Of a stretch of DNA of 64,000 bases, positions 22,201-64,000 are shown piece by piece (the first letter of the stretch is position 1; every line of letters begins with the position of its first letter). The notes below the pieces were generated by a model that saw only the letters and a list, made by a program, of their open reading frames with translations, searched no databases and had not been told where the DNA came from. Made by a program: the position numbers and the translations under genes. The DNA is from Zingiber officinale (taxonomy: Eukaryota > Streptophyta > Magnoliopsida > Zingiberales > Zingiberaceae), in the NCBI RefSeq assembly GCF_018446385.1, contig NC_055989.1:137791004-137855003 (forward strand), given 5' to 3'.

Positions 22201-25200
22201 TATCAATCTCTCCATCCTTTTGCAAAAATAATCCTAAATACTTAAAGTTCATAGATGCTCTTCTATCTTAACAATTGTCTCACTACATAAATTTAAATTC
22301 TATATATTCTGTCTTTATTCTATTAAATTTAAAATCTTTCACTTCCTCCTTCACATGTCGGATTTAACAAAATAATATCATATGCAAATAACATGTACAA
22401 TAGTACAAAGGATAAGGACTTAGAGTTGATCCTTAGGATGCGTTTAATTCAAGTTATCATGTATAACCTTGGTTATATGATTACCAAGTAATCACATAAC
22501 TAAGGTTATGGGGAATAAAACATAACCAAATGTTGTTTGGTTCAACTTAGGTAATGCAACAAAAACTTGTTTGTTTAAAGGTTTTAATGAATAACCTAAT
22601 TTAATATTTTACTATATTACTCTTAGTTACAAAACCAACCATATATATCTTTTAAACTCTACGTTTTTTTATTTTTTCATTTTCACATTTTTTCTTTATT
22701 TTTATGTTTGTTTTTTTATTTTTTATTTCTTTTCATTTTTTTATTTTTTAAATTTTTTCTATTTTTTATATATATATTTTTTAAAAAATATGTTTTTATT
22801 ATTTTTTATTATTTTTTATTTTTTTATGTTTTTCCCATTTTTTTATTATTGTTTACATTTTTCTATTTTTTAAATTTTTTAATGTTTTTTTACATTTTTT
22901 TATTTTTTTAAAAGTTTTTTATTTTATTTTTTATTTTTTTCTTTACATTTTTGTTTTTTATCACATTTTTCTTTTATTCGAGGATATTTTGGGTAAAAAA
23001 ATTTGTTCACCCCGGAATTAAGAAAAATCTCAATTTTTCGAGGTTTTTCGATTCCGGGTTACATGTCCCTTTTGCTGACGTGTCGGACATGGAACATTAC
23101 TCGGGAATCATCCATTACCTAAATCAAACAGGATTTTCGTTGATAACCTTGAATGGATAACCAACCAAACGCACCCTTAATGTAATCCTATTTTTATGAA
23201 AAATGTTTCGGTTAATCCACATGACGTCTTTACTCTTATTATTACATCCTCATATATATCCTTGATTAATTCAATATACGACCCCACGGGTCATCCGAGA
23301 TGGTAAGTGGTGGCATGCTTGCCACATGAGGTCGTGGGGTCGAACCGCAGGGCTATCGGAGCATAAATCCCCGAATCCTGTGCAACTCACCCCACCACCA
23401 CTTGCCCTCTCGGCTGTCGTGATTTACCTCCCTCGTGATGGCCTGGGGTCGGGTGCGGCGAGGGCGCTGGGGGCGAGCAATTTCGCCTTTTGCCACTTGC
23501 CACTTGATTAATTCAATATACACTACACTAACACTTATTTTTTTTGGAATTTTCTATATAATTTCCTTTGGGGCTCTATCATAAGTTTTTTTTAAGATAA
23601 TATCATGGGTAATCTTGCTTTTGTACTCAATATTTTTGTATAGTTTATATTGTAGACATAAATCCAAATTGATTTTCGATCACCGTGATTTCCTTTTATT
23701 TTTTTTATTACTCTTTTTCAAAATTTCATGGTATGACTTATTAGTTTAATACCCCTATAGTTTGCATAATTTTGTACGTCTCATTTATTCTCTATAAGGG
23801 AATTAGAGTACTTACCCTCCACTAATAATGTGTTTTTTTCATTGTCAATATAAAAGTTGAATAATTTTGTAAATCATTTAATGTCTTATTTTCCTAGGCA
23901 CTTCTATACATCTATCGGAATATCATCTAATCTAACTATTTTTTTTATTTTACATCTCATTTAAATATTATTCTACTTCTAAAGTTTAAATTCTATGATA
24001 AAAAATTAAGTTTTTATACTCATTTAACCAACTTAAATTACCTAAGTTAAGTTGGTCATCTAAACTTTAACTAAAAAATTGAAAAAAAATACCTCTTCCA
24101 TCACTCTCTTATTTCCTTATCATTTAATAATATTCTATTATATTTATTTTTAATGCATCTTATTTGGATAAAATTTCTTGTCTTCTTTCTAGCTTTAGTT
24201 ATTCTATAAATATCTTTTTCCCCTTCTTTTGCATCTAGTTGCTGATATAAGCACTCAAAAGTTTCATTCTTGATTTCATTTATTATTTCTCTTTTTTTGG
24301 CTAGTGTATATTTAAAAAAAAAAATCTCATTCTTTGTATAATATCTTAAGGCAAAAATCAAATAAGCACCCTCATTTTTAGAATCATCAAGATGACGCCC
24401 CACTTTGATATTGTTATCAAAAGGGCACCTCATCCCATGAACAATTACCCAACTACCATTCACTACATTATTCTCATTATTATCTCTTACCAATTATTTC
24501 CTGCCTAAATCCTGAACCAGGGGCATGTTTTAGCGTTTAGTAGCTACTACAACGTGAATATTTGGTAAACTTTGAGAGATCGTAACTTTTGACTCGAGTT
24601 GAACCACTAAATGCATAATATATCAAATTGAAACTCGTTAAAAGATCTACATTTGCTACACCCGTAATGACCTAGGCTTAGGCCAAAAAAGTCATTTAAA
24701 GTCTTTTCGGAGGCTTTGAAAAATTTTAGTCCTCTTTATTAATGTTATTTTCTATATTATAACAGTTATAAAATCATAGTTGCTACAACTATTGTAGTTG
24801 TAGCAAATATGAGACCGTAACTACTACAACATGTGTAACTACAGTTTCGTAACTGCTACCACGCACTTGAACGATTCAAGATTTAAGCAAAAGATATAGA
24901 CGGGATAATAATAAGAACGGTATTAGAGGCTAGTTGTGTCATTTTACATAAGGTGAGGCACCCTTTGACAATATAGAAAAATAGGGGTGCTCTTTTGACT
25001 TTTGTCCAATACCTTATAAGTTGTTCATTTTTGCTTAACTTTCTCCTATACTTTCTCATTTCACACTAAGATTCTTTATTTGTCGGTGCACGTCCCTTTA
25101 ACTCATCAAGTACACTCTTAGTTATCATTTTCAACTTTAATATCATCTTATTCTATATCGTATTCAAATCCCCATGTATTTCTCCTAATACATTTATTTC

Positions 25201-28200
25201 TGTTCTCTCCTTAAATATACTTTATTTCCTATCTTTTAACTTCCACTACTTATTTCTAGGAGTCGTGCACATTTTCCTTCTATCAATACAATGCTTGATG
25301 AGCATATCCAATACTAACCTATATTGGGTAGTTAAGTCTTCCAATTTTTTAACATGACTTTGAAAAACGTATTAGCTAATATAAGTTCATATATTATAGT
25401 AAAATCTAATATAATTTTCCCTTCTTTATTTCTTGTTTCAAACTCATTCTCTCATGCACCCTACAATGGAAAAAAAATTATTTATAATTGCTGATGAAGA
25501 AAGATTCAGTAGATTAAAATGTATATAATATGTGCTCGATTATTTCTATAAATTAACTTAGTGCATGATGATGAAAAATAAATAATAATTTCATTGATAA
25601 TCAAATTAAGTATTTATCATAGGAACATTAAAGATAAATTCTTAATTGTGTATATTATGTCTTGTTAGAAGAAAAATTAATTGCATACTCTTATTTACCT
25701 CTATTGCTCAATCATATCCTTTATGTTTACTTCTCCTTTGATACTCGTGTTTATCAAATTATTGTATTCTATCAAAATTTATTAATGAAACTTATAAGGG
25801 ATAACTTGCATTATTATAAGAAATAAAGAGTGGACCAATATCATATATAATTACATTAATATAGTTCCTATAACTAAAAAATATGAGAGGGCTTCGACTC
25901 AACGCTTACATAGCTTCTCAACTAAATAAATAGAGATTCTTATCAAGTTATTTATATTAGGTTAGTAATAAAATATTTCTTTATAAACATGGAACATTTG
26001 TTTCATGCTTTTAAAAGAATTTTCGAGTCTTTCTACACTTTCATAGCCTTTGGCCAAATTAAGATAATTTTCTTCACCAAATGGATTGCGGGTCGTTCAC
26101 CCTACTCTTATGTAAGGCACCTTACTAGGTGGATTGTTAGTGTTGTGCCCAAAGAATGTCCACATATCTCCATAATAGTATGATATTGTCCACTTTAGGC
26201 CTAATCCCTCATGACTTTGTTCTTGGGCTCTATCCAAAAGGCCTCATGTCAATGGAGATATCCTATATCCTTTTGAATTCATGATCTTTACCAAATCTTG
26301 GGACTTTGATTGAACCCCAACAATCCTCCCCTCAAATGAAGGACCACAATTACTCTCATGGTCTGAGCCTCCTCGTGAGCATCCGGTCACCCTAACCTGC
26401 TCTGGGCCTCATGAGCATCCGGTCACCCTAACCTGCTCTGGGCCTCCCCGCGAGCCTCCACATCTGGTCATCCTGGCTTGCTCTGAGCCTCCACATCTGG
26501 TCACCCTGACCTGCTTCGAGCCTTCCCACAAGCATCTGTCACTCATGACCTACTTCGGGTCTCCTCGTGAGCATCCAGTCATCCTGATCTACTCGCCCCT
26601 GCAAGTATCTAATCACTCTGACCTGCTCCGAGCCCGCCACAAGCATCTGATCACCTTGGCCTGCTCCGGGCCTCCTCGGGAGCATCCGGTCACTCATGAC
26701 AAGCTCCGGGCCTACCCTCAACTTCGTTCAAGACCACCCCACATGACATTTGATCTGGACCATGACTCTGATATCATTTGTTGAGACCAAATGATGTCTA
26801 CATATCTCCACAATGGTATGATATTGTCCACTTTAGGCCTAGGCCCTCATGGCTTTGCTCTTGAGCTCTATCCAAAAAGATCTCATGCCAATGGAGATAT
26901 CCTATATCCTTTTAAACCTATGATCTTTACCAAATATTTTCAATATGAGACTTTAATTGAACCCCAACAGCTAGCTCACTTTATTTTTATGTAAGACATT
27001 TTTCAAGTGAATTGCAAGTCATTCACCCTAATATGTACGTATATATGCATATATATGATGTATTTCGTATTGGATGGATTGTGAGTCGTTCACCCATGTA
27101 GATACAATACATCTCGTTCAAGTGGATTGCAGATCGTTCACCCTATCTATGTATAAGTGCATACTACAATGCATTTCATTATAAATGAATTGTTGGTCAT
27201 TCACTCTCATATACAATGCATCCCTCTTGGGTGGATTGCAGGTTGCTTACTTTTATTTTTACAGTTATATGATGTATTCATATTATGTGGATTACATAAC
27301 GTTCACTTTTACTTACACGACATAGCTTTAATGGGTGTATTGCATGTTATTCACCCACTTGATAAATTATGTTAAGTCTTCAATAAAATAAGACTATAAT
27401 ATGTATAACGTTGAAAACAAGAAAGTAAAAAATTGATGAAACAAGAATTAAAGATGAATGACATAAAAAAGGTATAATCAAATGGTGCTTACGAACATGG
27501 AAACATAAATTATCAATTATGTTGTTAGCCTCTCTTATGTTGTTACCCTTATATTTTCATGCACGACTCTCCTATTTCCACTTTTCACATTGTGCTCGCT
27601 TTCCTTTTCCTTTGACCTCCATACCAGACTTAAGATGATTTTCAAAGTTTGGTCAATATTATGGACGATTGCTTAGGGTGGCATCCGGCCGGAGGTGTCT
27701 TGCGACTCCTCAGGCGTCGCCTGCGACGCATCGGAGATGAGGACGCCTCCGGTGCCGGTTTCGCCCGCCCAATGGTAAAAGTCATCTGTGTCGGGCGGCA
27801 CGGAACGACATTTCATTCGTTGGTTTTACATACTTTTTTTACCTTGATAGACAATACATTACCTTAATAATATTGAAAACATTTCTATCTTTTTGTGCCT
27901 CGGTAATTGAAATAAAAACTCAATTTGATATGGCAATTCTAATTAGTATATTTCTCATAAGTTCCAGTTCTTTTCTAGCCAATGTATCCTTATTAGTCAT
28001 CCTATACTTATTTCCCATGACATTGTAGAGAAAAATAGACACCCGATCAAGATAGCTTGCACATTACTACTTCACATGGAAGTTCCATACAAATTTTTGA
28101 ATGATGCAGTTCTCATTGCATGCATCTTATAAATGGCATATCTTCTATTGTTAATCATGGTCAAATTGCCTTCAACATTTTATTCCCAACTGATATCATA

Positions 28201-37200: not shown

Positions 37201-40200
37201 ATAACGATCAATAATTAAGATAGATGACCCTAAAATAAAAAACTATTTTGTTATTATAGTATTGACTCTTATCAAACCACCATGATTTTCCAAAATAAAA
37301 CTCATGGGAGAAATTAAAATATTTTGGCAACGTGTTCAAGCCAACCTAGTCATGCTATGACCTGAACCCATCCCATGATCCCATGATGGTCTTTGATAAA
37401 AAGAGAACTAACCAAAACAATCCATTTCAAATCCATACAATAACAACACAGTCTAATCCCACTAAGTCGGGTCGGATATATGGATCCTTCAACGACATTG
37501 GACTTTATACCCCATTATATCATCATCATCTATACTTAAATAAATATTATATTATTTTATTATTACTAGGTCTTTTTTTAGTATTCCCCGTTTGATGTGG
37601 ATATTTGTCATAGTTTCACATTGTTAACTGAAGCATTTATTAGCCGTATATTCGTGTCATCTTAAACGTGTCTCTCAAGTTTTTCCTCAATAGATGCAAC
37701 TCCGATTTTCTCTCTAATGCTTCATTTCTTATTTTATCCATCCTCGTATAACATCCACCTTAAAATTCTCATCTATGTAACTCTCATATTCTGCTCATGT
37801 GCTCGAGTTATAGCCTAACATTGAATGTCACATAACATGACAAGTCTAACCGCTGTTTTGTAAAACTTCCTTTTAAATTTTAAAGATACTTTACAATTAC
37901 ATAAAACACCCGACGTTCTCCTCCATTTCAACCATCTTGCTTATATTCTATATAAGACATCTCTCTCAATCCCTCCATCATTTTACATATATGACCCTCA
38001 ATACATAAAGCTTTAGTTTCAGACAACTCGTCATCTCCTATCTTAACTGTTGAATACTTCTGAAGATTCCCTTAATTATAGAAATTATGATTGATTTGTA
38101 TTCCCTTGATTATTAGGATTGAGATTCTCTTTTCCACATGATATCAGAGCGAGGTTGAAAGGCAAATCTTATTTTTTCTGTGTCGTTGTTCCTTGTGCCG
38201 CAACATCGCCCGACGCTGTTGTCCTCCTCTCCTCTTCACAAACTGACACCGACGTTTTCCTGCATCATGAGCACATAGTCCTTCGTCCTTTCTTGTAGTC
38301 CGGCGACGGAGAGCAGCTCGGGAGATCAGCAGTTTAACGACGACAGGGATTATTCTTCATGTAGTTCCACCGTCCTCACCTATCTTCTTGCATCGCTTGA
38401 GTCTTTCTTCGCTATGTGCCCTCTTTCATTGAACTGATCAATGGCTTTCTCCGGCACTTTAAAATCGGATATTTCAATCTTTACCAACAACATCACTGCA
38501 CCATTCTCTTTCGAGCAGTTGGATGGTAAGAACTACTCTTCTTGAGCCTCTCACATCAAGCTTTGGCTTGTTGGATAGGGTTATGAGACACATCTCACTC
38601 ACATCAAAGAGGATGTCCAAGTCGTCGATCGTCCTCTATAGAAAACGATTGACGTCCGGTTATGTTGCATTATCCGAGCCACCATCCATCCAATTTTTAG
38701 GAATGTCTTCCGCACTCACAAAACCTGTAACTCTGTTTGGACAAAGGCTCAACAACTATTTACAAACACCTCTCGGCGATTCTATTAGGTTTGAGTGTTA
38801 GTATTAGCCCTAGTACCAATTATGAGATGATTGTAAAAGGCTTATTTTGTATCATATATATATCATTATTAATAAAAGACAAAGTTGGTTATTATATTTA
38901 TTTCAGTTCAGTGCCAATTGAATAAGTATAATAATGTCCTTGGGTAGTAGGTTCTTATCTACAGTATATCAATTGGTTGAATTGATAGTGAGATATTATA
39001 GATATACATAGAACACTATTCTTAACTGTTCCTAGTCGAGCATTAATATACAAGGACAATATTAATACGTTGAGACTAGCATGTAGGTCAACGAATGACT
39101 TGATCTCACAAGTCATGGATATGAGATATCAGGTTGACACATTAGTATATATTAGAGAATATATACTGAATGACCCGCCATGAGAATATTTCATGGATCG
39201 TCGTATGAGTGTCGTAAACATTCTCATGTGACTATTGGTATGAATAGTCCTTAGACTGAAATCACTACGGTTCCTACATAAGGAGTTGTATATTTTAGTA
39301 TCGTCAAACGTCACCCGTAACAGGGTGGACTATAAAGTCGATCACTGGGTTACAATAAATTATGCAGAGGAATGTGAGTGATGTAGATGGGATCTATCTC
39401 TTTGACGGAAGCGATATCCCTTGATTAGTAGGACACAAGAAAGCATGACCATGCGCAAATGAGTCAATATGAGATATTGAGCTTATTTGATTGAGTGTGT
39501 CTACTTAGAGATCAAGGAACACAAAAATTGATAAGAGGATGGCATGGTCTATGCCTCATTAATCAATCTAGATATCAAGGATAAAGGGACCAAGTCATAC
39601 AAGATGATAGCCACGGACAAGTTAAGTCGGATCTCGACTTTCTCGTCACTTGGGTAGCAATGATGTCTTGCTAGATGTCACTCATTGTTTATGTATCGCA
39701 AATGTTGGTTTGGGAACATTGCCAACATTACGAGAACCTATAGGGTCACACACAAAGAATAAGTTGATATGGAGATGAGTTCATGTGATGAATCAATGGA
39801 TTAAGTGTAATCTGAATTTGACTCATTGAGTTAGACTCAAAGGGATCCAATTGTTGGATTGAGTCGAGTTGCTTGAGAATCAATGGGTTGGACTCATTGG
39901 GTGAGCTTGAGTTCACCAAGGAAGTTGAATGGTCAAAATTGAACCATTAGATTGAATGGTTAATTTTGAACCATTAGATTAGAAGATGAAAGGGTGGAGA
40001 CTCTTGGTATACCATGGGATGGTTATAAATATCATTTTGAATGATATTTTTCATGAGTTTTAAGAGAGTTTTCATGTGTTGAGACCCTTGGCATTCTTCT
40101 TCCTCCTTCCCCCTCTTGGCCGAAATTACCATTGTGGTTGCTAGCACAACCTTGTGATTTCTTCTCCATCTTACTTTGTTTGTGAGACAAGCAAAAACAA

Positions 40201-43200: not shown

Positions 43201-46200
43201 GCACAGTCTAAAGATAAGATCATTATATCCCAAAGGAAGTATGCAATGGATATTCCGGAAGAAACAGAAATGTTAAACTCAAAGACAATCAACAACCCCA
43301 TGGATCCTAATGTTAAGCTCCTGCCAAATCAGGGAGAATCTCTTCCAAATTCTGAATGGTACAGATGATTAGTAAGGAAACTAAGCTATCTTACTGTTAT
43401 TCGTCCGAATATCTCGTTTGCAATAAGTGCAGTAAGTCAGTTTCTCAACTCTACATGCAAGGATCATTGGGATGTTGTGACTTACATTATTCGATATATC
43501 AGAGGTACACCTGGAAAGTCTTTTGTACGAAGACAAAGAATATACTCGAGTTGTAGGATATTCTGATGCAGATTGAGCAGGATCTCCTGCTGATAGAAGA
43601 TCCACTTCTGGGTTTTGTATATTTGTCGGAGATAACCTTGTTTCTTGGAAAAGCAAAAAAGCAAAATATTGTGGCAAGATCCAATGCAAAGGCAGAGTAT
43701 CGAGCTATGGCCATAGCCAGTCAAGAGCTTATATAGCTAAAACAGTTGCTTCAGGAACTAAGGTTTGGAGAGGCTACATAAGTATCACTTATATGTGACA
43801 ACCAGGCCACCATGCATATCACCTCGAACCCAATTTTTCATGAGAGGATAAAACATATTAAAGTTGATTGTCACTTTTGTCAAAAAGAAAGTTATATCTA
43901 GAGAAATATCTACTAGCTTTGTCAATTCACATGATCAACTAGCAGATATATTCACTAAGTTACTGAGAGGTCCCCGAATTGACTATATATATAAAAATTT
44001 GGTGCATATGATCTATATTCTCCCGCTTGAGAGGGAGTGTTGAATACTTCTGAAGATTACCTTAATTATAAGGATTATGATTGATTTGTATTCTCTTGAT
44101 TATTGGAATTAAGATTAATTTTTCTTTTATCTCCTTATGTATATAAATACCTACATGTAAACATATTAATGATAAGATAAAGAGATTTTCTCTTTTCCAC
44201 ATTAACAATTATCTCATTACGTCTCCTGTTACTAAACTTAAATTCCATATATTATCTTGACTTTACTAAGCATAAACCTTTCACTTATAGTATTTCCCAC
44301 CAAGATTCTAGTTTAGCATTTACTACTTCACATATCTACCAAAACAATATTATCTGCAAACAACATGCACGACGGTATTGTATTTTGAATGTATTTAGTA
44401 AGTTTGTCTATGATTAGTATAAAAGGATAGAGACTTAGAATTGATCCTTAATGTAATCATATCTTTATTAGAAATGCTTCAATTAATTCATATGAAATCT
44501 TCAATCTGGTCGTTACATCCTTATACATATCATTAATTAGTTCAATATATGTTACGCTAACACCTTACTTTTCTAAAATTTTTCATATAATTTCTCCTAA
44601 GACTCTATCATAAGCTTTTTCTAAATCAATGAATATCATGTGTAGATTTTGTTTTTGCTCCCGATACTTTTCAATTAGTTGATGCATAGCTTCTATTGAC
44701 GACTTTGTAAGCATAAATCCAAATTAATTTTTATCACCGTGGTCTCCTTCCTTAATCTTTTATTTTTTATTACTTTTTTTTAAAATTTTATAATATGACT
44801 CATTAGTTTAATATCCCTATAGTTTGCATAATTTTATACATATCCCTTATTCTACATAAGAAAACTAAAGTACTTACCCTCCATTAATTAGACATTTATT
44901 TCGTTTTCAATATCATGTTAAATAATTTTGTAAGTCATTCAATACCTTATTTCCCTAGGCACTACCTCTATCGGAATATCAGTCTAATGATTTTTTTATT
45001 TTACATTCCATTTAAAGCCTGTTTTACTTTTTGAAATTTGAATTTTACGATAAAAATTTAAATTTCTATACTCATTTGACCTACTTAAATTATCTAAGTT
45101 GGTCACTTAAACATTTATTAAAAAGTTAATGAAAATACCTCTTCTACCATTTTTTTATTTCTCCATTATTTACTAGTACCTACTGCATTCATCTTTAATA
45201 TATCTTAATTTCATTCTTTGCTTAATTTACTACTTTCTTATATCTTGGCTATTGTATATTTTTTAAGTTTTCGTCGTTCTTACAAATATATAATTTTTTA
45301 TAGATTATTGGTTTTTCTTCATACTTTCTCATTCCACCACCAAGATTCCTTAACTCATCGAGCACACTTTTAGTTAACTATTTTCAACTTTAATATCATC
45401 TTATTTTATATCATATTAGAGTGTAAACCTTCTCCTTAAATATATTTTATTTTCCATCCTTTAACTTCCACCACTTAATTCTATGAGTCATGTATATTTT
45501 CCTACTACTGATACTATGCTTGAAAAGTATATCCAACGCTATTAACTTATATTAGGTAGTTAAGCTTTTTCCAGAAATAACTTTACAATCTTTATAAATC
45601 TTTCTATCTCTCTTCCTAATCATAAGAAAGTGAATTTGCGATTTATTATTTCCTCTTTTGAATGCAACAAAGTGTTCTTCTCTTTTTTAAAAAAATAAGG
45701 TCAAATGTTATCGGAAAATCCAATATAGCTTTCGCTTCTTCATTTTTTATTCCAAACGTATAACCCTCGTGCACTCTCATATTTTTCATTTTTCACTCTG
45801 ACATATCCATTTAGATCGTCGCCTATTAAAATCATTTCATTTACTAGAATTTTGTAATACTTCATCTAGGTCATTCCAAAACCTTAATTTGGTATCTTTA
45901 TCTGATCCTACTTGAGATGCAAATATGTTAATTACGTTCATATTTTTTTCACCACTACTATCTTGACAGCTATAATCTATCATCTTTCTACCTACTCCGG
46001 TAACTTTATTCTTTAACGAACTATCTACAATAATACCTAATTATTTTTTTCTCTTTCCTGTGTACTATAACCTAAAATCTGAGTTCTCTATCATCTTTAT
46101 CTTCTCACTTATTTGTCTCTTGTACACATAACATATTAATTATTCTCTTAATCATCGTATCTACTACCTCTATTTTTTTACCTGTGAAGGTTCTATGTTT

Positions 46201-49200
46201 TAAATCTTACATTATTAAGTTTTCAATAATATTTGTTCTTATCTGACCTGTGTGGTGTGAAAACTCTTGCATATTTAACACTACATTCAAGTTCTAATGA
46301 GATATAGCGATAAGTCGAACCCTATAACACAAACTCTTATACATTTTACACTACACTTGAGTTCTGAAGATGTAGCGGCCCTTGCCGACACGTTATAGTT
46401 AGACCATGCAACACGTTCATTCAAGGGAAGGACCTAATATTAATATAATAGTTTAATAAATTCATTCATTAAACATTTGCCTTAGCTGAACACACCCCTA
46501 CTTTATCCAGGCTTAGGACCAACTATGATGAGGTTAATTCATCATGGGCAGAGTTACATTTCAAATCCATAGTAAAATAAAAATCTAAATCAATGATTCT
46601 GACATGTGAAAAAATATGGTTCCCAATTTAAAACTTTATAAAGATGTAATATTGGGAATGAGCATTGCTCTAGACATATTGCGATAGATGACCTTAATTT
46701 TAGTGGGCAATTAGACCAAAATGTATCTTTGTTTGGATAAACAGAATAGAAAATTGTTTTATTATTATCATTATTATAACATTAACTCCTATTGAACAAC
46801 CATGATTTTCCAAAGTAAAACCAGTTGGAGAAACTAAAATTTTTTAGCAAAGCATGCAAGCTAAGCTAGTCTTGCTATGACTTGAACCCATCCCACGAAT
46901 GATGAACCCATGATGATCTTTAGATGAAATGAGGATTAACCGAAAAATGCATTTCAATATACTCTAAGGATAAACTCCATAGTAAAATAAAAATCTAAAA
47001 CAATCATTCTAAAGTATGACAGAATATGGTTCCCAATGTGAAACTTTATAAAGATGTAATATAGGAATGAGCATTGAAGCCCACCCCTCCCCCACCCTCT
47101 TTAAAGCAATAAGTGGATTACTTTCATCCACCTATTAAAGCAGACTTATTACAAAACCAGTTTCGATAGTGTAAGAAAATTGTAGTTAGTAAATACTATT
47201 GTGACCACAATTTCAAAAACAAAAGCATAAAATCTAAGTTGAAAAAGAAAAATGTCCGAAAGTGGCACTGACTTTAAAGATAACACCTAGAGCCCCTACT
47301 TTACTTAAATTCAATGAACCTTTGGCCAATTTACATATCCTAACTTTAAAAGTGTCTTGTGATAATTTGACCCCTTTAGAAAACAAGCACACAAACCATG
47401 ACATAATGTTGTATTCTCGAGATGAATTGTTAAAGTTCATGTTAAAGAAATTATTATTGACTTGACCATTTTGAATAATAATTGATTGCTAATGACGATA
47501 TTATATCTAATTCGTTCATGCTTACCTAAAAGAAGAAAAGAGAAAATTAAGGAAAACAAAGATAATGAAATAAGAATGCAAAACATCCATTTTGACAATT
47601 AAACTTTCATTGATACGTGTGCCTTTTTAGTTACTTATGGCTCTGAAACTCAACCGACTATAAAGTTGTTTTTATTTTCCATTTTATTTTCACAAAAATT
47701 TAGGATTCCACTAAGCATATATAAGATAAATATTGATGGTAAGAACATATTTCTACCGAGTAGTATAAACTATACAATAGTTCTCTTCTTGCATTCATGC
47801 ATTTAAATTAAGAAGACCTCCAAGAACCATTTTCCCCATTTTATTAAGCTGATTTGTGTTAATAAAATTGATTTAAATGTCTAGTTATTTAACTTACCAA
47901 TACATTTGAACAATGGTTTAATTTTTCAAAGATAATTTTATTATCTTTAGTCAATGTTCTCATCCTCAACACTGCTTTTTTAGACACTAAGACTACAGTA
48001 AACATATAGAGATTGTTCCCACTTTGTGATCGATCATACCATTTCCTTACACATTGGAATTGGATTTATTACTTTAAGGTTTCCATTTGCCTAAATAAGT
48101 TATTTAGACGAATTATTTAATGTTTGGCAATAGATCACCAACTAGGAGCAAACTAAGCGCAAGAGGAGATCAAGTGGAGAACACAATGGTTTATAGATCT
48201 ATTGACATCAAATTTGTGTGGATATCAAGGATTGAAATACAGAGGCATGCAGCGCGAAACAGGCACTATTTGTCATTCCAATGTGGGATAAACACAGGTA
48301 CCTATCGGCACCGTGACTACGAGGCCATCGCGAGGTCGCCGCAAGGTTGCGGAGGGCACGGCGACCTCACGGTTGCCCTCCCTACATTGGCGCAAAGGTC
48401 ACCACGACCTCTGTGGGTCACAGAGGCAACCAAGACCTCCATGGGTCGCACTGGAGATGCTCATGCCCGCGTCACGGCAAGGACGCATGCATCGTGGCAG
48501 GGGCGTTTAGGGAATAATTAAACTTAAACTTAGTTAATAATCTAAATAGATTTAATCAAAGCCTAATAAAACTATCATATTAATTTAATATATTTTTTTA
48601 TTTTTTAAATTCTGAAAATATATAATAAAATTTCGATTTATTTATCATATGGAGACGCGGGGATCTCGTTAATTTTATTTTTTTTTCTTTTTTTTAAAAA
48701 AATATTTTTTGTATTTTTAATTTTTTAAATATTTAAATTAAATTTTTTTATTTTTAATTAATATATTTATATTTTAAAAATACCTAAACCATAATGGCAC
48801 GGCACAATACGATACCGAAAGTTATTGTTCCAGTCATAAACCGAAACTCCGATATAACTCGAGACTCGAGATTTTAAACCATAATGAATATTCAATAGTT
48901 AGGTGTTTAAGGTGGTCAAATTACCAAATACAAATATATATAGCTAGGTAGATATAGATTTATTTACATCAAATGTTATAATAATTTCTTATTGGAGAAA
49001 ACATGAATATAGTAACATTCTATTTGTAGTTCCTTGGTGAGTGAGAATGTACAATTTAAATTAGAAAATTAAGATTTAGAATATTTTAGAATACTAATTT
49101 TAGATTTTAAAAATTGTTTAAAAGTTGCAAGTTTTTATTATTGTGATCAAGATAGGGAAATTTATTATTTATTTTATAGGATAAGTTATTCTATAACTTG

Positions 49201-52200: not shown

Positions 52201-55200
52201 GAATAACCAAATGCATTTCTATTCTATAACTGTCTAATCTAGTTTCAATTGTGTCATTAAAAATTTAATTTATTTGTTTTTTTAATTTCTACTGGCTCAT
52301 TTGAAGGCAAACAAGTTACGTATAAAAGTATTATCAGTCTTCATTTGAATAGATCTCGACATTATTTTAAGTGTGCAAAGTGACAACACGACATCATATA
52401 AAACTATACCATTCCGAGCTGAAGCCAAAACTTTAGGGTGAAACAATACTTAAAAATTTGATTGGGCTACTCAATTACAACATTTTTGCTTTCAAGTGTC
52501 ATAATGTTGCATTCCTAGAAGTTTTCCTAGTTATCATGCCCCTTGGTCTTGTCTATAAATGCTCCTGAGTTAAGTACTAGGGCTGCCAAACCAAGCTCTT
52601 AGATGCTGCTTTGAAACTTATTTGTTGTTGGACTTTCATCAAGATTTACTTGCTCAAACCCACGGAGACATCTTTGTTTGCATTCCTTTCTGATCTGTCA
52701 TTGCATGTGCCTTTAGTAATTTGAGAATATTGTTAGCTGTTATCTTGTCTATAAATGATCCTGAGGCAAAGTACTAGGGCTGTTGAATCAAGTTGTTAGA
52801 TGCTTGTCTGAAACTTATTTTGTTGTTCAACTTTAATACAGATTTACTTGTTCAAACTTATAGAGACTTCTTTGCTTGCACTCCTTTCTAATTTTTTATT
52901 GCATATGCTTTTAGTAATTTGTGAATATTGTTAGTTGTTATCTTTCAATTTCAATATATGACTTTAGCCTATTACAATTTTTTCTAGTTGACATATTTCA
53001 GTTATTTAGTTATTTTCTATATGTTTTCCTATTGCACTCAATGCTGGTGATTAGCAAAAGCTTGAGATATATTGCATGCTGTTTGTAATGCCTTTTCTAT
53101 AATTGTCATGATGCTATGTAACTCATGTTCTATCCATGAGAAAAGAGACACTTGATCAACACTTTGATGATATTGGTTTAACTGTTCTATGACCGAAGAC
53201 ACTATATATACTTGAATAAATGATTCTCGTGCTACAGCATGCATACCGCTGACAATATCTGCTTGAGAACATGAGAGACCACAACATCAACTGGCTGAAG
53301 ATCAACAACAGCAGCGCCTGGTTCTCCATGCTGAAAAGACGACTTGAAAAGATAAGCATCATATTTTGCTAAAAATGAGAATGGCAGTGAAGAACAGTGC
53401 TTCTTTATGCTGATAGATTATCAGGTAACATCCTTCTTAGTATATTTTATGTTGAAAGTGGTTTTTACCATTGAATTAGAACATAACTTACAATTCCAAG
53501 TCCAAGTTCCATCAATCCTGGACCTAGGCGATCTGATGTGACCTGACCAGGAAGTGTACAGACTGATAGTGCAACTCCCATTGTACCCACCATTTCAGAA
53601 GCATGCTTTGCTTCTGCAGCAACATCAGCAAGGTGTAGACCAGCATCTGCAGCGGCTCCAGCAACCTAAAATATGGACAAAGAAATTAGTACATAGCAGA
53701 ATTTTTTTCAGCACAAATTCTAAATGTCAAAATTAGGCTTAACACATTCAATTGGTGTAACTATTAAAGAATAAGGTCTTATTTCTACATGCAATTTTAA
53801 GCCTTTGGTCTCCCTGCAATAATGGATATGGGATAACTCTTCAGAGCTAATAGATATCTCCTAGATGAAGAACATATTGGGGTCAAGCATAATTGGATTT
53901 TGATTGGCGCCAAAGACAACACCTTATGAACTAGAATTGTTCCTGCTAATCCTCTTCGTCCAGCTATGCCACGAGGTGGTGGAAGAGCACAATCATCTCC
54001 AACGACAACCATCTAAGGATATCAAATCAAATAAATGCCAAAGAATCATTAATAACTAAATATCATATAAATATGAGAGAATTTGTTTCAATTACCTCAA
54101 CTTTATATCCCTCTGCTTTTGCTTGCTCAGCTGCCAATCCAAAATTCAGTCGATCACCAGTATAATTCTGCTCACATATAGTTGTCAAAAAAAAAATAAC
54201 AATAGACTGTCAATTGTTAATATTCCTCAAACATTCAAATAGAAAATCAAAGGAAAAAAGGGATTATTTACAAATGCACATTCCAAGACAAACACTATAG
54301 TACCGTGACTATCAAAAGGCAACCCTTGGGACCTGTTACAGCTCGAATACCCTGCAAAGTCGAACCCAAGTGAGCTTATATTTCATATGGACATGATAAG
54401 TAGATTTACATGTTTAAAAAGACGTACAGCCAAAATAGAGTCGACTGGCGGGGAGGTAAAAACATCACCACATATGGCAGCTGTTAACATCCCTGGACCA
54501 ACAAATCCTGCTTGAGCAGGTTCATGCCCACCTCCACCTCCTGCAATTTAAAGTTAGATGGATGTCATTCCTGACAGATTACTTTGAGCAGGCTGCAAGA
54601 TTGAAATGCCACAGAAATGCTCAAGCATAACAGTCCTCTGACATGGCTAATTTGTCATGATAACTAAATATCCTGTTATCAATAAATACATATGTTCATT
54701 CCTCTAATCATAGGTGCACTTGTGGACATGTATTTTTGAAGGGTTGAACTTGGGAAGATGGAATGCCTATATGACCCACTTGCATCCAGTGCTAGGCAAA
54801 AAAAATGCATGTGCATAATGTGGATATAGTTTTAGCTTTGATGAGAAAAACATTGATAAGGAGTACAAATAGAAGGGTTTTTTGGCCATCAAATTGACTA
54901 TATGCAGATACCAAATTTGTTTGGTTAATTATACAGACAGGTTCACAAGAACCTCTAGGCTTTAAACTAGAATTGGCATTGAGGCACAAGACACGTATCA
55001 ATTTTTCAGAGAATAAGAAAATATGTAAACAAACATGCAAAGAGAAGGATAACTTAATAGCAAGCAGTACCAGATATGACAGCCACTTTATCGTATGTAG
55101 CACTCAAGACATCAGCACGTAGTACTACCTTAATCTGCGAGATAGAGTGAGAATTTATTTACAAAGATTATATGATTCATGGCATACTTTCACGAGAAAT

Positions 55201-57399: not shown

Positions 57400-58682
57400 A
57401 CAGCATAAGTGTCTTCAGCCGATACAAACCGTCCATTTGTCCCTTAGCTTCCAGTTTTCCTTATATCTATTGCCAGATTGTGCTGTTGTCTGTTACAAGT
57501 GAGCAATTGTCCATTTCGTTCCCCGTCTTTCCAAGCCCGCCTCATCGCAGCATACAACTGCGGTTCTAACCCAAAGTTACACTATGTACGCGGTATTGAC
57601 ACGTGACTTGCAGCACCAAGAAAAGCAAAAGAACCTTAAAATTTGCTGGTTTGCACTCCAAGAACTTATTTGATAACTAAAAAAAATTATTTCCAATTTA
57701 TACTTTTGAAAAATGAAAAATAAATATTTACTGTATTATTCATCTTTAATAAATTTAAATTTGTTAGAAAAATAATTGCAAATGTATTAAAAGATTTTAA
57801 ATCAAATAAAGCTCTTGACTTACCAAACTAATTTGTAAATTAGTTTTGGTCATTTATAACAATTTTTTTAAGACCAAGATGGTTTTCAAATTAATTAATT
57901 TATGATATGCGTGTTTAACAAAATATATATATATATATATATAATCAAGGAAAATAACGTAAATGAAGGAAAGAGAAAATATAATATATGTGCATTGAGT
58001 TGAAATGTGAGAAATATAGAAGAAAAAATTTTAAGATTTAATCATCCAAATAACTCAAGTCGTGTGTAAAAATAACAGAGTTTTACACTGACTATACATA
58101 TTTAGTTTGAAGGGACAAATCATATTTATACTAAGTAAATATAAAAAATATAGTAATAATATTGAGCTGTATTAGGACATCTTTAATGGAGATTTTTCTT
58201 CAGATTTTTGTTCTTCAAATTTGTGTAAAAAAATTGGCCACCGTTGTGGCCAGATTTATCTTTTTCGAAACCATCGGCTGGGAAGCCAAGTTTTTGTCGA
58301 ATAGTGAACCCTAATTAAAAAAATAAATTTTTTTTATGAAATTAACTGTTTTTTTTTTACTTTTTATTTTCTTTCATTTTTTTCTTTCATTTTTTCTTTT
58401 TTTCTGGCCGTTTTTATTCCTAGTGTTTATTTTCCAACTGTTTCATATTTTTTTTCCCATTTGCAATGGCTAATTTGGATACCTATATATATTTATTCTC
58501 TCTGTAAATTTTTCTAATTCATCCTATGCTCAATCAAGTCATTCTATTATTATTTTTTCTAATCCATTTTATCCTTTTTCTTTTCTTCCAAAATGGATCT
58601 AAATTATAGTGGATCCTTAAGAAAATTTTCCAATTCTAAACATACAACTTTACAAAGTTTACACATTTGTCTTGATGTTCAG
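57400..58682. other. DAK upstream intergenic region
   Basis: AT-rich sequence without a gene. It includes an (AT)n microsatellite at 57923-57942 and an AAAATTGG...GGCCACCGTTGTGGCC mini-palindrome near 58232-58252. Confidence 0.5.
57923..57942. repeat. (AT)n microsatellite
   Basis: About ten uninterrupted AT units in the intergenic region upstream of DAK. Confidence 0.85.
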
Positions 58683-58739
58683 TGATCCGGTGGTCAGAAC
58701 GGGGGACCACTACAAGAAAATCTTCATTCAACAACACTC

Positions 58740-58990
58740 AAACGACAACGGTTTTATACTAAACTGTTGTTTTTTTACCTTTTAACAACGGTTTTAACAA
58801 AAACCGTTGTCTTTTAGCAATTTTTTTGACCTACAACAATGATTTTTAAAAATCGTTGTCTATTTATGTTTTTTTGGGGCTACGACAACGGTTTTTAAAG
58901 GCTACGACAACGGTTTTTGAAAACCGTTGTCTATGTGCGCTTTTTTTTGGGGGTTACGACAACGGTTTTTAAAAACATTTGTCTATTAAG
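58740..58990. repeat. CACTA left subterminal repeats
   Basis: About nine copies of ACGACAACGGTTTT or its complement AAAACCGTTGTCT, often as head-to-head pairs able to form hairpins, within 250 bp of the left terminus. Confidence 0.9.
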
Positions 58991-59437
58991 TGTTGTTGAA
59001 TACCATATTTTTTTCCCTCACCATTTTTTTTCCCTTCGTCATTTTTTACCGCCGAGTTTTTCTTTCCCTCTCCCCGAAATTTTTTGCCGCCGATTCCGCC
59101 CCTTTACCTTCTCGATCCCTAAGCATTTCGGTCCAACCAACGATCTCTTCATCTACTTCACGTTTTTCTTTCTTCTCGATCCCACCTCGCTGCCACCAAA
59201 ATCCACCCAACTTCCCCGACGAGCTTTTTTTCATCCTGTAAGAGGAAGGCAGAATGAATCTGCGCTTCTTTTGTTTTCTCCTCTTCTTCATCCTGGAAGA
59301 GGATGTGAAGGGCTTAGGGTGTCTCAGATCTCAGCGGTGACTCGTCTCCTTGCTTGTGCTTGGTCCCTCTTCACCAAAACCTCTTCCCTCCTCGTTGGTC
59401 TTCTTCCTCATCCGAAGGGTGTCGTGATCGGTGTGTG

Positions 59438-60111
59438 ATGACGACAGGTGAGGCGGCGGCATCTCCGAAGGTGGGCATCGCGTTCTCCAACCGCCTCCGG
59501 CACGTGGAATCCTTGTCCTTGCACCCCTCGGGCGCTGGTCAGATCTCACACCTTAACGCCGTCATCCTCGGTGAGTCCCTAGAATGAGGAGAACGACCTC
59601 ATCTTCCCCTCACAAGAATTTTCCAGCCAGGCCCTCGTCTCCTCTCCCGAACAGGTGTGTGCTGCTTGTACTTGAACTCTTCGGTTCGAGCTTTCTTGGG
59701 CTAATTCCGTTTTATGGGCTTGAAGGTTCCTCCTTTATTGGGCATTTCGTTGTTTTTGTAAGTAAGTTTTGGCTTTGTTTAGGTTTATGTAAGTTTTATT
59801 CTTTTGTGGAAACTTGTAGATTGTGATATTTGCTATTGTACAGAACTAGTTGTGTGCTTTTTTTCCCGATTCGGAAGAATGCGAAAACTTTAAAATGGAA
59901 CATTGTTTAGTTTCTTGGATAAACTTGTTTTACCTTTTTTTTCTCAACATTAATATCATGTATCTTCAGTATCGGAACATGTACAGAAATTGATAGAGGA
60001 TCCAGCTGGTTCTGGTCAGAGATCGCTTCCCAATTCTACTGGAATGAGAAGTGAAATCTGGAGGTTTAGACCAAAAACATTGTTGTGAGGAAGGGAATTG
60101 TCAAATTCGAG
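59438..60111 (+). pseudogene. ACS: Captured acetyl-CoA synthetase exons 1-2
   Basis: Exon 1 (59438-59654) reads MTTGEAAASPKVG and then RLRHVESLSLHPSGAGQISH and LNAVILGESL, then after a frameshift EENDLIFPSQEF and SSQALVSSPEQ. It ends at a GT donor (59655). Exon 2 (59970-60111) reads MYRN, IEDPAG, WSEIASQFYWNEK, then IVVRKGIVKFE, ending at GTGAGT. This is the N-terminus of plant acetyl-CoA synthetase (acetate to acetyl-CoA). Two frameshifts and two in-frame stops in exon 2 show decay. The AMP-binding core is not present. The C/T-rich upstream part (59006-59437) may be the captured 5' region of the same gene. The family call is from recalled conserved motifs. Confidence 0.82.
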
Positions 60112-60632
60112 GTGAGTTGTCTTACACTTAATCTTGTTTGGTGGACAATGATGAATATTTTTTGTTCTTTGTTTTCTCCTTTTGGAGTTCAGTTGTTGCC
60201 GTAAATATGATATTTGTTAGAGAATGTCAGCATCCTTGTGAAGAGTTTGAGTGTTTTTCTTACTGAAGGAGTGAAACTGTTACAAATGGATAAGAGAACC
60301 TGCCAATGTTTTTAAAATCTCATTGTTCAAATAGTTTGAGACTTTCATATGCTATATTTTGTTGTTGATTGATGTCTTAATTTTTAATAACTTTTATTCT
60401 TGTAGTTGTTGCCTTCTGATTGGGTTACTTATATTCAATTAGAGGCAAACTTTTCTTCATGCTTTCTTTTGTTTTGGATACTCAGATATTGCAGTTTTTG
60501 TTCTTGTTTTGTTCATCATCTAGGTATTCTAGTTTGATTTTTAGTTGCATACATTTTCAGATCATTTGGAGGTTAAATGACAGACTTGTTAAGCTGCATA
60601 TTTCCTTACATGTTTTTATGTACTTACTGTAG

Positions 60633-61412
60633 CTGCACGAACTAAAAATTACAGTGGCGCTAAACTGGAAGGTGTTGTTAGAAGTGCTGTCTCATATGCC
60701 TTGAATCGACAGATAAGCTTCGATGATTTGACCAAGCCCTTGGATGAGGAGAGCATAAAAGTCACTATGGATGATTTTTTGAATGCTCTTCATGAGGTTG
60801 GACTAGCTTTTGGTGCATCAATGGATGATCTTGAACAACGCAGGTATGTTCAAGTTTGACATTGTCTCGGTTGAAGATGATTCCACATCCTTGAAAGCAA
60901 TTCTACTTGGGGGTGTTCAGGAGGGCCTACAGATTTTTGTGCTCTGAATTTTCTTAATGTTACATAATGTGGCATTATCTTTAATGTGCAAATGGCTTTC
61001 AGGCTTAATGGGATTATCGATTGTGGTGAGAGGCATAAACACATCCATGAGAGAGCCCTGCTTCTTGTGGAGCAAATCAAAGACAATCAGAGCCCACTTG
61101 TTACATACCTTCTGGAAGGTCCAACTGGCAGGTAAATTTACAACCAGCTTTCTAATTGATTAATCTGACTTTTCTGCCGATTCAATCTGCTATTTATTCT
61201 TTTATGTCAGTGGCAAAACTTCAATGGCAGCTACAATTGGTATAGAGAGTGATTTCCCATATGTCAAGATGGTAAGTTGTGATATTATTGATGAAAGAAA
61301 AATACTTATGTCAGTACCATCATGTTAAATGATTAAATCCTCTCATTATTAGATATCTGCAGAAAGCATGATTGGTCTCGGTGAAGTAACTAAATGTGCA
61401 CAAATTGTCAAG
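60633..61412 (+). pseudogene. NSF: Captured NSF (vesicle-fusing ATPase) exons
   Basis: Four exons with canonical borders and no stop: 60633-60843, 61003-61131, 61211-61271, 61353-61412 (461 nt; 153 whole codons). They read [40 protein letters not shown] and [14 protein letters not shown]. The D2-domain Walker A GPTGSGKTSMAA follows, then SDFPYVKMISAESMIGLGE. NSF is a hexameric AAA+ ATPase of about 740 aa that disassembles SNARE complexes. Only the end of D1, the linker and the first quarter of D2 are present, so the piece cannot work as NSF. The clean frame suggests recent capture or selection. Confidence 0.9.
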
Positions 61413-61573
61413 GTGAGTTGAATGCTAGAATAATTTAGTAAAAGTTCTCAATTTATTAAATTGTAAATAAAAAAACATTTTAAGTATTTATCCTACTAAT
61501 TTTGTCCATGCATTAGTAATATCCTACTAATTTTGTCCATGCATTGTTTCTATCTGGGTTGCAAGATGAGTTA

Positions 61574-62015
61574 CTACCCCCTTTGCAAATGCAGATGCTG
61601 CACTCTAAAGCTATTATTGAAAATGAAATCCAAGAAACAACTTGGAATATTGCCCTGTAATAAATTCCATGAGATATCCAAGAATTGCAGTTGAGATAAT
61701 TGCCTAAGACTGAAAGGGATTGACCCACTTAACTTATTGCCATGAATGTTAAAGTTCCATAACTGAGATCCTTGTGGACATTTAGACAAACCATCAAGTA
61801 GATTTGCTAGTTCTCCACCAATATTATTCAAAGACAAATCAAGAGTTTCCAAGTTGTATAGATCACCCAAACTCAATGGTATTTGCCCATCAAGTTATTC
61901 ATTGATGCATCAAAATACCTTAAGTTGTGAAGATTACCCATGTTTTCTGGTATTTGACCAGAAATATTATTATCAGATAGTAATAACTCCTCCAAATAGA
62001 TGAGATTGTACTCCC
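61574..62015 (-). pseudogene. Captured leucine-rich-repeat fragment (antisense)
   Basis: The minus strand encodes about six plant-type LRRs: LEELLLSDNNISGQIPENMG, NLHNLRYFDASMNNL, then after a one-base loss GQIPLSLGDLYNLETLDLSL, NNIGGELANLLDGLSKC, KLSGSIPFSLRQLSQLQFLD and ISWNLLQGNIPSC. The pattern (LxxLxxLxLSxNxxxGxIPxx) is that of extracellular receptor-like proteins and kinases. No signal peptide, transmembrane segment or kinase is included. It lies opposite in orientation to the ACS and NSF pieces, so it was captured separately. Confidence 0.85.
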
Positions 62016-62488
62016 AAGTCTAACTCTCCTTAGTAGTTCTATCTGTTTCTTGCATAATTCTTAATCCAACTTTGCATTCATTATCAAATGCTGCAAGACA
62101 TTGCTTCCTGATGCATAATTTAATAGTTAACTTATATTTGCATGCAGATTTGAGAACAATTTTTAAGAAAGAAATAAAGACAAGCTATTGTTTCATGTCA
62201 TCTTTCTTTGTTTCCTGGTATATCTTTTGACTATGCTACAACAATTAGTTGTTGATTTGTATTCTGAATCAGTCTTGAGTCTCTAGGCTAATAACAACTG
62301 GCATTCTGGGGCCATCTCAACTCTCTGTGGTAGTTGTGCTATTGAGACGAAAGAAAACAATTTAAAAGTAATGCTAATAAAGTTCGTTTGAAATTATATC
62401 ATATTCATATATATTATTTGTGATATGTTGAACACATCTACCAAAATTCTTTAAGAAATAGCTTACGTTTGCCTTATTGTAATTTGCA

Positions 62489-62880
62489 GGCATGCAGTAG
62501 TGATGAAGATGGTTTGCTTGGTTTCGACGTACATAGTGATGGCCATGGCCAAAGGTGCTGCCTAAACTCATGATTTTTGTTTTGACGCCATTAATTCCAC
62601 CCAATTCAACGGATATGGTGTTTTATTGCAGGCAACTAACTGTTCTAGCAAGAGATGAGCGAATGGAGATCACCTCAAGCATGAATGGTGCTCCTCTATT
62701 CCCTCCAAAGAAGAAATATTTTTCTTGTATCGAAATGAATGGTTTTCTGCCATTAATAGCAATTTTGTCAATCTTCATTTCTTGCTCTATGTATAGTTGC
62801 CTTGATGTATCCTTACTATCTTGATTATATTTGGTTTGTCAGGTTATTGCGTCTCAAGACTAGCTCGAGGTGACAAAATA
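62489..62880 (+). pseudogene. Captured exon-like pieces of an unidentified gene
   Basis: Two exon-like blocks with intron-like borders: about 62490-62553 (after TTTGCAG; ACSSDEDGLLGFDVHSDGHG) and about 62632-62687 (after TTGCAG; QLTVLARDERMEITSSMNG). They join in frame. A third possible block starts near 62843 (after TTTGTCAG) but has an early stop. I do not recognise the protein. Confidence 0.5.
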
Positions 62881-63222
62881 TGCTGGATTAGTCTGTGCTC
62901 AGGCCCATCAAGAAATCCTACAAGTTGAAGATTGTGATGGGACTTGGGTTGACAATAATTAAGTGCAATCCTACATGACATGAACCACCATCACAAGTTT
63001 CTAGTATTTTAGCTATTGTTCATTAGTTGTAAATGGAGTTTATTTGTATTGGGATAAATTTTATTTAAACATGAGATATGTTTCTTCTTTTGTGATTGTA
63101 ATTCTTGTATAACTAACATTTTGAATGATATTAATGTGGGGAATATTCTTTCTTGATTATGATTCTTTATTATATATTTAAATTGAAATTTGATATATTT
63201 GTATTAAAATATAATAATTTAA
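62881..63222. other. CACTA interior, non-coding
   Basis: About 340 bp between the last exon-like block and the right subterminal repeats. It resembles a 3' UTR and downstream region (TTGTAATTCTTGTATAAC, AATATTCTTTCTTG) but has no definite signal. Confidence 0.35.
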
Positions 63223-63480
63223 AAGACAACGGCTTAAAACTGTTATTTTTATCTATCACCCTCAAAGACAACGGTTAAAAACCATTGTCGTAGCCCCAAA
63301 AACGGTTGTAACTGCAGTAAAAATGCTCTAAATAACAACGGTTTTAAACCGTTGTCTTTTCATTCAAAGACAACGGTTTAAAACCGTTGCAAAACTGTTG
63401 TCTTTTTATTCAAAGACAACGGTTTAAAATTACAATGGTTTTAAATGGCATACGACAACGGTTTTTAACCGTTGTCTTTC
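63223..63480. repeat. CACTA right subterminal repeats
   Basis: About ten copies of AAAGACAACGGTTTAAAA and its complement, paired as inverted repeats, mirror the left end. A few copies have decayed (ACTGTTATTTTT, CCATTGTC). Confidence 0.9.
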
Positions 63481-64000
63481 AATGTTTTTGTTGTAGTGGA
63501 CCCCCGTTCTAGAGAGTCAACGCCACGTGGAAGTCAAAGGGCCAGGTGGCCGACCGGAGATGGGTGGGTCGAACGGCCGGCCGGCTGATCGGTGTCTAAC
63601 TGATGGCAGAAGGCGCCCCAGCAGGAAGCTGGGCCCCGGCGCTCATGGTACAGGATCGTAAGGCCGAGCGGAGGGTACGCTCGGCCGAAGACATGAGGTA
63701 GCATACTGCTAGCAGTCTCCACAAAGCACATTACCGAGAATCTCCCAAGTAGACCACTATAGGTGTCCGGCAGGACGTAAGGCAGAGACTGGCCGGCCGG
63801 ATGCCTATAGTGGGAGCAAGGGGAAAAGGACAAAGAACATCTTTTTCTGACAGCAGGTATGTTCTACGTTTAGGCCATACTCCGAATCTTACGACAGGGG
63901 ATTCCGCTGTCCCATCGAAGACGTGCTTGGACTGTAGCAGTATGGGGTCAGGTAAGCTCACTAACAGGCCCTTACTGGGGTATGGGCTGAGGACACGTGT

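Follow-up and report, generated by a model that had tools for sequence, protein, structure and literature searches.

The last part of a 64,000-nucleotide stretch of the Zingiber officinale genome (assembly GCF_018446385.1, contig NC_055989.1, positions 137,791,004 to 137,855,003 of the forward strand; hereafter the window) contains a 4791-bp CACTA element, spanning positions 58708-63498. This element is very probably a non-autonomous Pack-CACTA, in which intron-containing genomic copies of host gene pieces were stacked in successive rounds. Gene capture by DNA transposons is still argued mainly from finished products, while here the capture intermediates appear to survive in one genome, as sequences with one to five captured genes. 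The original prediction, made by a model from the letters of this stretch, proposed that pieces of at least three unrelated host genes had been captured. Multi-gene capture was supported by our analysis, but the list was incomplete, as five sources could be recognized: acetyl-CoA synthetase (ACS), NSF, an inverted LRR fragment, KAS III, and a remnant ARGONAUTE (AGO) PIWI exon.

Termini, insertion site and sister copies

The boundaries of the element were confirmed to the base, with the predicted termini found exactly at positions 58708 and 63498 (CACTACAAGAAAA...TTTTGTTGTAGTG). The element shows the features of the CACTA superfamily, namely 5'-CACTA inverted termini, a 3-bp target duplication, and subterminal direct and inverted repeats. 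The latter had been described as strong, and the counts agree: with up to 2 mismatches allowed, GACAACGGTTTT-like repeats match the window 24 times against 4.6 expected, and 22 of these matches are located in the element ends, and the ACAACGG core occurs seven times in the first 300 bp and eight times in the last 300 bp, as compared to 0.02 and 0.01 in shuffled sequences. Moreover, single-strand folding of the left and right subterminal regions against shuffles resulted in z values of -8.3 and -13.6, respectively. No match to the subterminal repeat was found in the prokaryote and virus collections scanned, and literature searches for the repeat letters and for palindromic CACTA targets returned unrelated papers only.

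The GAC target duplication was observed in both flanks, and it is further supported by a second copy of the target sequence, found in a locus composed of the window's right flank and the 5 kb beyond it (L040). There, the 778 bp with which the right flank begins are repeated 2.26 kb downstream with 96.8% identity. This second copy is immediately preceded by the 27 bp closing the left flank (58681-58707), the overlap being exactly the 3 bp GAC. Since the 27 and 778 bp are joined with a single GAC, this second terminal repeat represents the unoccupied site. The insertion point of the CACTA element is approximately 25 bp from the start of a terminal repeat of about 0.8 kb, which belongs to another repeat-flanked element, probably a long terminal repeat (LTR) retroelement. 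This host element has roughly 3 kb, internal tandem repeats of about 65 bp, and its second terminal repeat at positions 2734-3535 of L040. The target in the window, AGAACGGGG-GAC-CCCCGTTCT, is palindromic, with 9/9 complementary arm bases. A family preference for palindromic targets was considered and rejected, as the sites of the other 19 copies have only 1-5 complementary arm bases out of nine; because those sites are non-palindromic, the palindrome at the window site is local.

We then focused our attention on the remaining genome (3.09 Gb in 211 contigs, where C1-C22 are chromosome-sized and the window is on C4). Most genome searches scored part of their candidates and the resulting counts are lower bounds, which is a first point to be held against our reading. 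Loci related to each other are found on neighbouring contigs that form pairs (C7/C8, C17/C18 and others), a pattern that fits an assembly which is most likely haplotype-resolved; a haplotype-resolved ginger assembly with 11 pairs and 3.1 Gb has been described (PMC8342452). The search for sister copies was successful, with 31 places (L009-L039) retrieved for comparison and at least 13 full-length places of 4791 bp, including the window, the other 12 being 96-98% identical to it. Matching 3-bp duplications flank 18 of the 19 other two-ended copies (19/20 counting the window). In addition, when the joined flanks of six copies were used as query, a repeat family showed the uninterrupted site in 40 out of 40 places scored (95-97% identity); this result concerns copy L020 only, as its repetitive flank filled all 40 of them, and the other five copies gave no scored match. 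Copy L020 sits in a relative of a clustered high-copy repeat, located at C1:47.2-48.5 Mb and C2:53.8-55.3 Mb.

These copies also bear on the possibility that the element is an assembly chimera or a chance clustering of gene fragments. Even though long-read errors could explain some of the frame breaks described below, this explanation is refuted by the 12 other full-length copies, which occupy different sites and are colinear with the element along its 4791 bp, and we consider it to have practically no probability. Furthermore, the sources of the NSF, LRR and KAS III pieces were found at separate loci, and not adjacent to each other at a normal genomic locus.

The predicted lack of a transposase was confirmed, as no transposase domain was detected at E<=0.001 in the 73 open reading frames (ORFs) scanned, six of these inside the element, drawn from the 101 ORFs of at least 75 aa in the window. 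KAS III exons were considered as a transposase candidate and rejected, first for having no Pfam match, and then for their KAS III identity, established from the source locus. The absence of transposase coding sequence in the scanned ORFs, the survival of host source loci and the presence of several copies sharing cargo are the characteristics of a Pack-CACTA. Mobilisation would be expected to depend on a CACTA transposase supplied in trans, with the ends carrying the repeats expected to bind it. The genome holds 6544 first-look candidates for Transposase_21, and the 150 that were scored were all above the cut-off.

Captured pieces and the proposed order of capture

All captured pieces but the LRR fragment lie in one direction. 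Assignment of the first piece to ACS exons 1-2 is maintained, based on a Pfam match of exon 2 to ACAS_N (1.2e-9, frame-corrected reading), but the reading frame is broken, and in the window copy the ATG is followed by a stop after 49 codons. Along 131 bp, the DNA of exon 2 is 76% identical to that of an ACS-like exon in the host genome (C18:8976780-8977000). NCBIfam gave weak support (acetate--CoA ligase, 0.0007), and of two PDB searches one was without match, while the other retrieved acetyl-CoA synthetase at E 0.66 among chance matches. The four NSF exons were verified by their GT-AG introns and by a PDB phmmer match to NSF (1.5e-31), and the source locus on C18 (L043) continues into the next NSF exons (PDB NSF, 1.1e-19). 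A 31-bp tandem duplication marks the NSF breakpoint in the element; it is missing at this point from the source, which diverges after TATCCTACT, the first nine bases of copy 2. The duplication may have originated from template slippage, and such a repeat scar fits a gain by DNA repair or aberrant excision.

The inverted LRR fragment was correctly assigned (LRR_1, 2.3e-13, minus strand), although only on a reading joined across a frame break. Its source is a gene cluster at C8:103.39-103.75 Mb and C7:117.60-118.16 Mb. Intron loss was rejected, by judgement, as the reason for the bases missing inside this piece, since the gap of 213 bp and its 8-bp overlap resemble a short-repeat deletion. The following piece had been left without identity in the original prediction and corresponds to KAS III: the C8 sequence just past the segment (L041) encodes the 3-ketoacyl-ACP synthase III C-terminus, and a joint reading of the element exons and L041 matches Pfam ACP_syn_III_C (9.4e-38) and PDB KAS III (1.1e-30), mainly in the part contributed by the source locus. 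The LRR and KAS III sources are both on C7/C8, more than 11 Mb apart. Finally, an AGO exon remnant starts at position 62843 (VIASQD*LEVTKYAGLVCAQAHQEILQ) and corresponds to the last PIWI exon of a group of related copies, here named type C, which carry PIWI-domain exons (Pfam Piwi 5.2e-21, joined reading) where the window copy has LRR and KAS III. Source loci were thus found for NSF (C17/C18), for LRR and for KAS III, with best-source divergences of 4%, 2% and 3%, respectively, and no source of comparable identity for ACS and AGO; these values would agree roughly with the order of capture proposed next.

The cargo of related places forms a nested series, from AGO, to AGO and ACS, to AGO, ACS and NSF (type C), with LRR added in type B, and KAS III in type A, to which the window belongs and in which most of the AGO piece is gone. 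Type C copies (L029-L036 and L038) contain ACS and NSF, and the six of their middle segments that were compared have AGO, while type B copies (L024, L025 and L037) have LRR in addition. The middle of type A (LRR, KAS III) did not match any of the nine type B or C middle segments compared. Candidates for the earlier steps come from nine ACS places with less than 92% identity. In seven of these, AGO but not NSF is present within 25 kb, another has NSF nearby, and the ninth has neither; a protein search for NSF, in which 54 of 54 candidates were scored, found none at the seven places with AGO and ACS. Regarding the AGO middle segment, 10 of the 40 DNA places scored have NSF within 25 kb. The possibility that these 40 places are host AGO genes was rejected, since none of the 31 PAZ places lies closer than 25 kb to them. 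For the PIWI exon pieces, 252 matches were obtained with 150 of 287 candidates scored, and the 150 rows listed correspond to 117 places, five of which adjoin a PAZ locus and are host AGO-like genes; the protein identities of these five range from 40 to 62%. On sequence grounds, the dispersed PIWI pieces are an abundant AGO-carrying repeat lineage. AGO PIWI pieces occur at no fewer than 117 places (e.g., C17:11407189-11408481 and C10:100046148-100047592), most rows having 1-3 in-frame stops.

A tree of the region shared by 19 copies (leaving out the fetched rows L021-L023, L026-L029 and L034-L039) supported a type C clade (100), a type B clade (98), and the separation of A from B and C (100). 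Type C is regarded as ancestral because of the cargo nesting and of a 2-bp ACS deletion common to A and B. In fact, ACS exon 1 is open to the splice site in three of the four aligned type C copies (L031-L033), with a stop in L030, whereas the frame breaks near the same point in 13/13 type A and 2/2 aligned type B copies; relative to type C, 12 of the 13 type A copies and both type B copies are 2 bp shorter at this point, and L013 is 3 bp shorter. Each gain of cargo may have occurred via DNA repair or aberrant excision during transposition, and type A would have been amplified recently, after the last gain. Flanking sequences are relevant in this respect: no pair among the 13 full-length copies has flanks in register at the junction, although some flanks are related repeats, while the type C copies L029 (C9) and L032 (C10) have a common left flank (identical over 52 bp, 93% over about 600 bp) and are probably one insertion seen in both haplotypes. 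Based on this difference, type A looks younger than type C.

Besides the lower-bound counts, several observations weigh against this account. No autonomous partner with these ends was identified in the genome searched, and the genes from which the ACS and AGO pieces directly derive were not found. Positions 62009-62129 have no assigned source, the C17 and C18 places may be alleles, and copy L011 lacks a matching duplication. In addition, the tree is unrooted and the ancestral position of type C depends on the nesting and the 2-bp deletion mentioned above. Moreover, the places with AGO only and with AGO and ACS are candidate CACTA elements known by their location, and two of the seven AGO and ACS places have their pieces approximately 8 and 20 kb apart.

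Decay and possible functions of the cargo

Analysis of the 13 type A copies determined that C-to-T changes per site per copy are 0.055 in CG, 0.051 in CHG and 0.011 in CHH contexts, compared to 0.0025 for transitions at A/T sites. Such CG- and CHG-biased decay is the expected mark of methylated DNA, and type A may therefore be methylated and decaying at present. Mean divergence of type A copies from the majority sequence is 1.33%, and changes at A/T sites amount to 0.0047. With a substitution rate of 1.3e-8 per site per year, the A/T-site changes roughly translate into a few hundred thousand years.

Could the stacked pieces encode a working product? A chimeric protein or transcript would start at the ACS ATG, splice the NSF exons in frame to KAS III, and finish in an AGO-derived 3' end. 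The shared orientation of all pieces but LRR is in line with it, NSF exon d agrees in phase with the first KAS III exon, the NSF-KAS III frame is open in the window copy, and the KAS III exons are free of stops in 11 of the 13 type A copies. Nevertheless, the early stop in the window ACS frame, an NSF frame that is intact in only 4/13 type A, 2/2 type B and 0/4 type C copies, and a strong CG/CHG decay implying methylation make such a product very unlikely. Considering the ACS stop, the few open NSF frames in type A and the decay, a protein function is unlikely and the cargo is probably passenger DNA.

The family could alternatively work as a source of small RNAs regulating the source genes. 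Between the NSF, LRR and KAS III pieces and the best host locus of each, identity reaches 96-98%, which suffices for matching by 21-24-nt RNAs, the termini fold back, and the methylation-like decay suggests that the family is a target of silencing; besides, captured genes of maize (in Helitrons, Pack-MULEs and Sireviruses) are presented as siRNA reservoirs in a review (PMC13317346, in the part available). However, methylation is possibly confined to the elements, and we regard this regulatory role as unlikely. At most, the passenger cargo may be partly transcribed or feed small RNAs, and the chance that such small RNAs affect NSF, LRR or KAS III is modest. A more speculative idea concerns the AGO piece, which seems to be the oldest cargo and the one most widely found: it would have been kept since RNA from it, as a decoy or as a source of small RNAs directed at AGO transcripts, hampers host silencing. 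If true, AGO-derived RNA would help the lineage to amplify and to collect more genes, but we judge this highly improbable. In any case, a PIWI fragment of the host silencing machinery inside a methylated-looking transposon lineage is of interest for small-RNA study.

Feature coordinates, remaining window and known systems

Table 1. Features of the CACTA element and its target site (positions in the window).
Feature	Position	Strand	Basis or remark
Target site duplication GAC, left	58705..58707	.	Flank reading and unoccupied site
Left terminal inverted repeat, CACTACAAGAAAA	58708..58720	+	Identical start in window copy and 12 other full-length copies
Left subterminal repeats (ACAACGG/CCGTTGT)	58726..59001	.	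Repeat counts and fold
ACS segment (5' flank, exon 1, intron 1, exon 2, part of intron 2)	59000..60142	+	Left border set by query; right border is the start of NSF homology
ACS exon 1 with ATG	59438..59654	+	Frame broken by 2-bp deletion common to type B (L024, L025)
ACS exon 2	59970..60111	+	ACAS_N 1.2e-9; frame broken in 7/7 copies shown
NSF segment	60143..61528	+	96% to C18:37415055-37416444 and C17:38648678-38650065
NSF exon a	60633..60843	+	PDB NSF match, splice sites
NSF exon b	61003..61131	+	PDB NSF match, splice sites
NSF exon c	61211..61271	+	PDB NSF match, splice sites
NSF exon d	61353..61412	+	PDB NSF match, splice sites
31-bp tandem duplication (87%) at NSF breakpoint	61489..61550	.	
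LRR fragment, inverted	61613..62008	-	98% to C8:103531568-103531930; 213 bp missing inside, 8-bp overlap
KAS III segment (start possibly 62009)	62130..62743	+	97% to C8:92093199-92093809; 93% to C7:105212407-105213042
KAS III exon	62490..62554	+	Source-locus comparison
KAS III exon, truncated	62632..62743	+	Source-locus comparison
ARGONAUTE-derived 3' segment, common to types A, B and C	62758..63170	+	Right limit approximate
Right subterminal repeats	63221..63482	.	Repeat counts and fold
Right terminal inverted repeat (TTTTGTTGTAGTG)	63486..63498	-	Near-mirror of CACTACAAGAAAA
Target site duplication GAC, right	63499..63501	.	Flank reading and unoccupied site

Elsewhere in the window, related sequences at 1-2619, 18103-22345, 23503-25337, 37437-38047 and 44202-46957 are mostly 69-81% identical, and one of them has a reverse transcriptase domain (18619-19293, minus strand); as judged from these similarities, they are old retroelement copies. 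A 198-bp unit occurs twice in tandem at 52547-52944, with 82% matching, and one of the 73 scanned ORFs matched a Dak1 (dihydroxyacetone kinase) fragment (6.7e-9).

The original prediction considered multi-gene capture by CACTA elements to be known in a few plants, which overstates its rarity, as it is well documented in soybean, maize and wheat, and the capture model has been reviewed (PMC13317346, PMC8616336). Literature searches for CACTA capture in Zingiber gave nothing relevant among the matches listed. No case of captured ARGONAUTE pieces was found in the literature searched, including the available part of PMC8616336, which is weak evidence that this cargo is undescribed. The element is a well-formed Pack-CACTA and, as such, of a known kind; what is unusual is the serial-capture ladder preserved in sister copies, together with the ARGONAUTE cargo. 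As identity to three of the source regions is still 96-98%, and a scar can be read in at least one junction, it becomes possible to test directly in which order the pieces were captured, by what chemistry the junctions formed, and how capture relates to amplification.

The closest comparisons, drawn from the available parts of the respective papers, are the following. Soybean Tgm-Express1, in the wp allele, is a CACTA element with five unrelated gene fragments (PMC1947982); its cargo is different and spliced chimeric transcripts were shown there, whereas the ginger elements form a multi-type family with a nested capture series, as read from genomic DNA. In maize, Pack-CACTA is described as holding the largest number of distinct loci among the Pack-TYPE groups, and the ginger element resembles the Pack-CACTA of Arabidopsis, rice and maize in its CACTACAA ends, target duplications, lack of transposase and multi-locus coding DNA (PMC8903248). 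However, rice and maize Pack-CACTA are mostly described as low copy, and duplications of 5 nt are given for the CACTA elements of these two species (PMC8903248), while ginger has at least 13 full-length and many partial copies, successive cargo types, and a duplication of 3 bp, the length given for the CACTA superfamily (PMC4938662, PMC8978399). Finally, 140 CACTA capture events were reported on wheat chromosome 3B (PMC4290129), where, as in ginger, CACTA-mediated capture and exon shuffling are found, partly degenerate. That work is a survey, whereas in ginger one lineage is resolved into capture steps.

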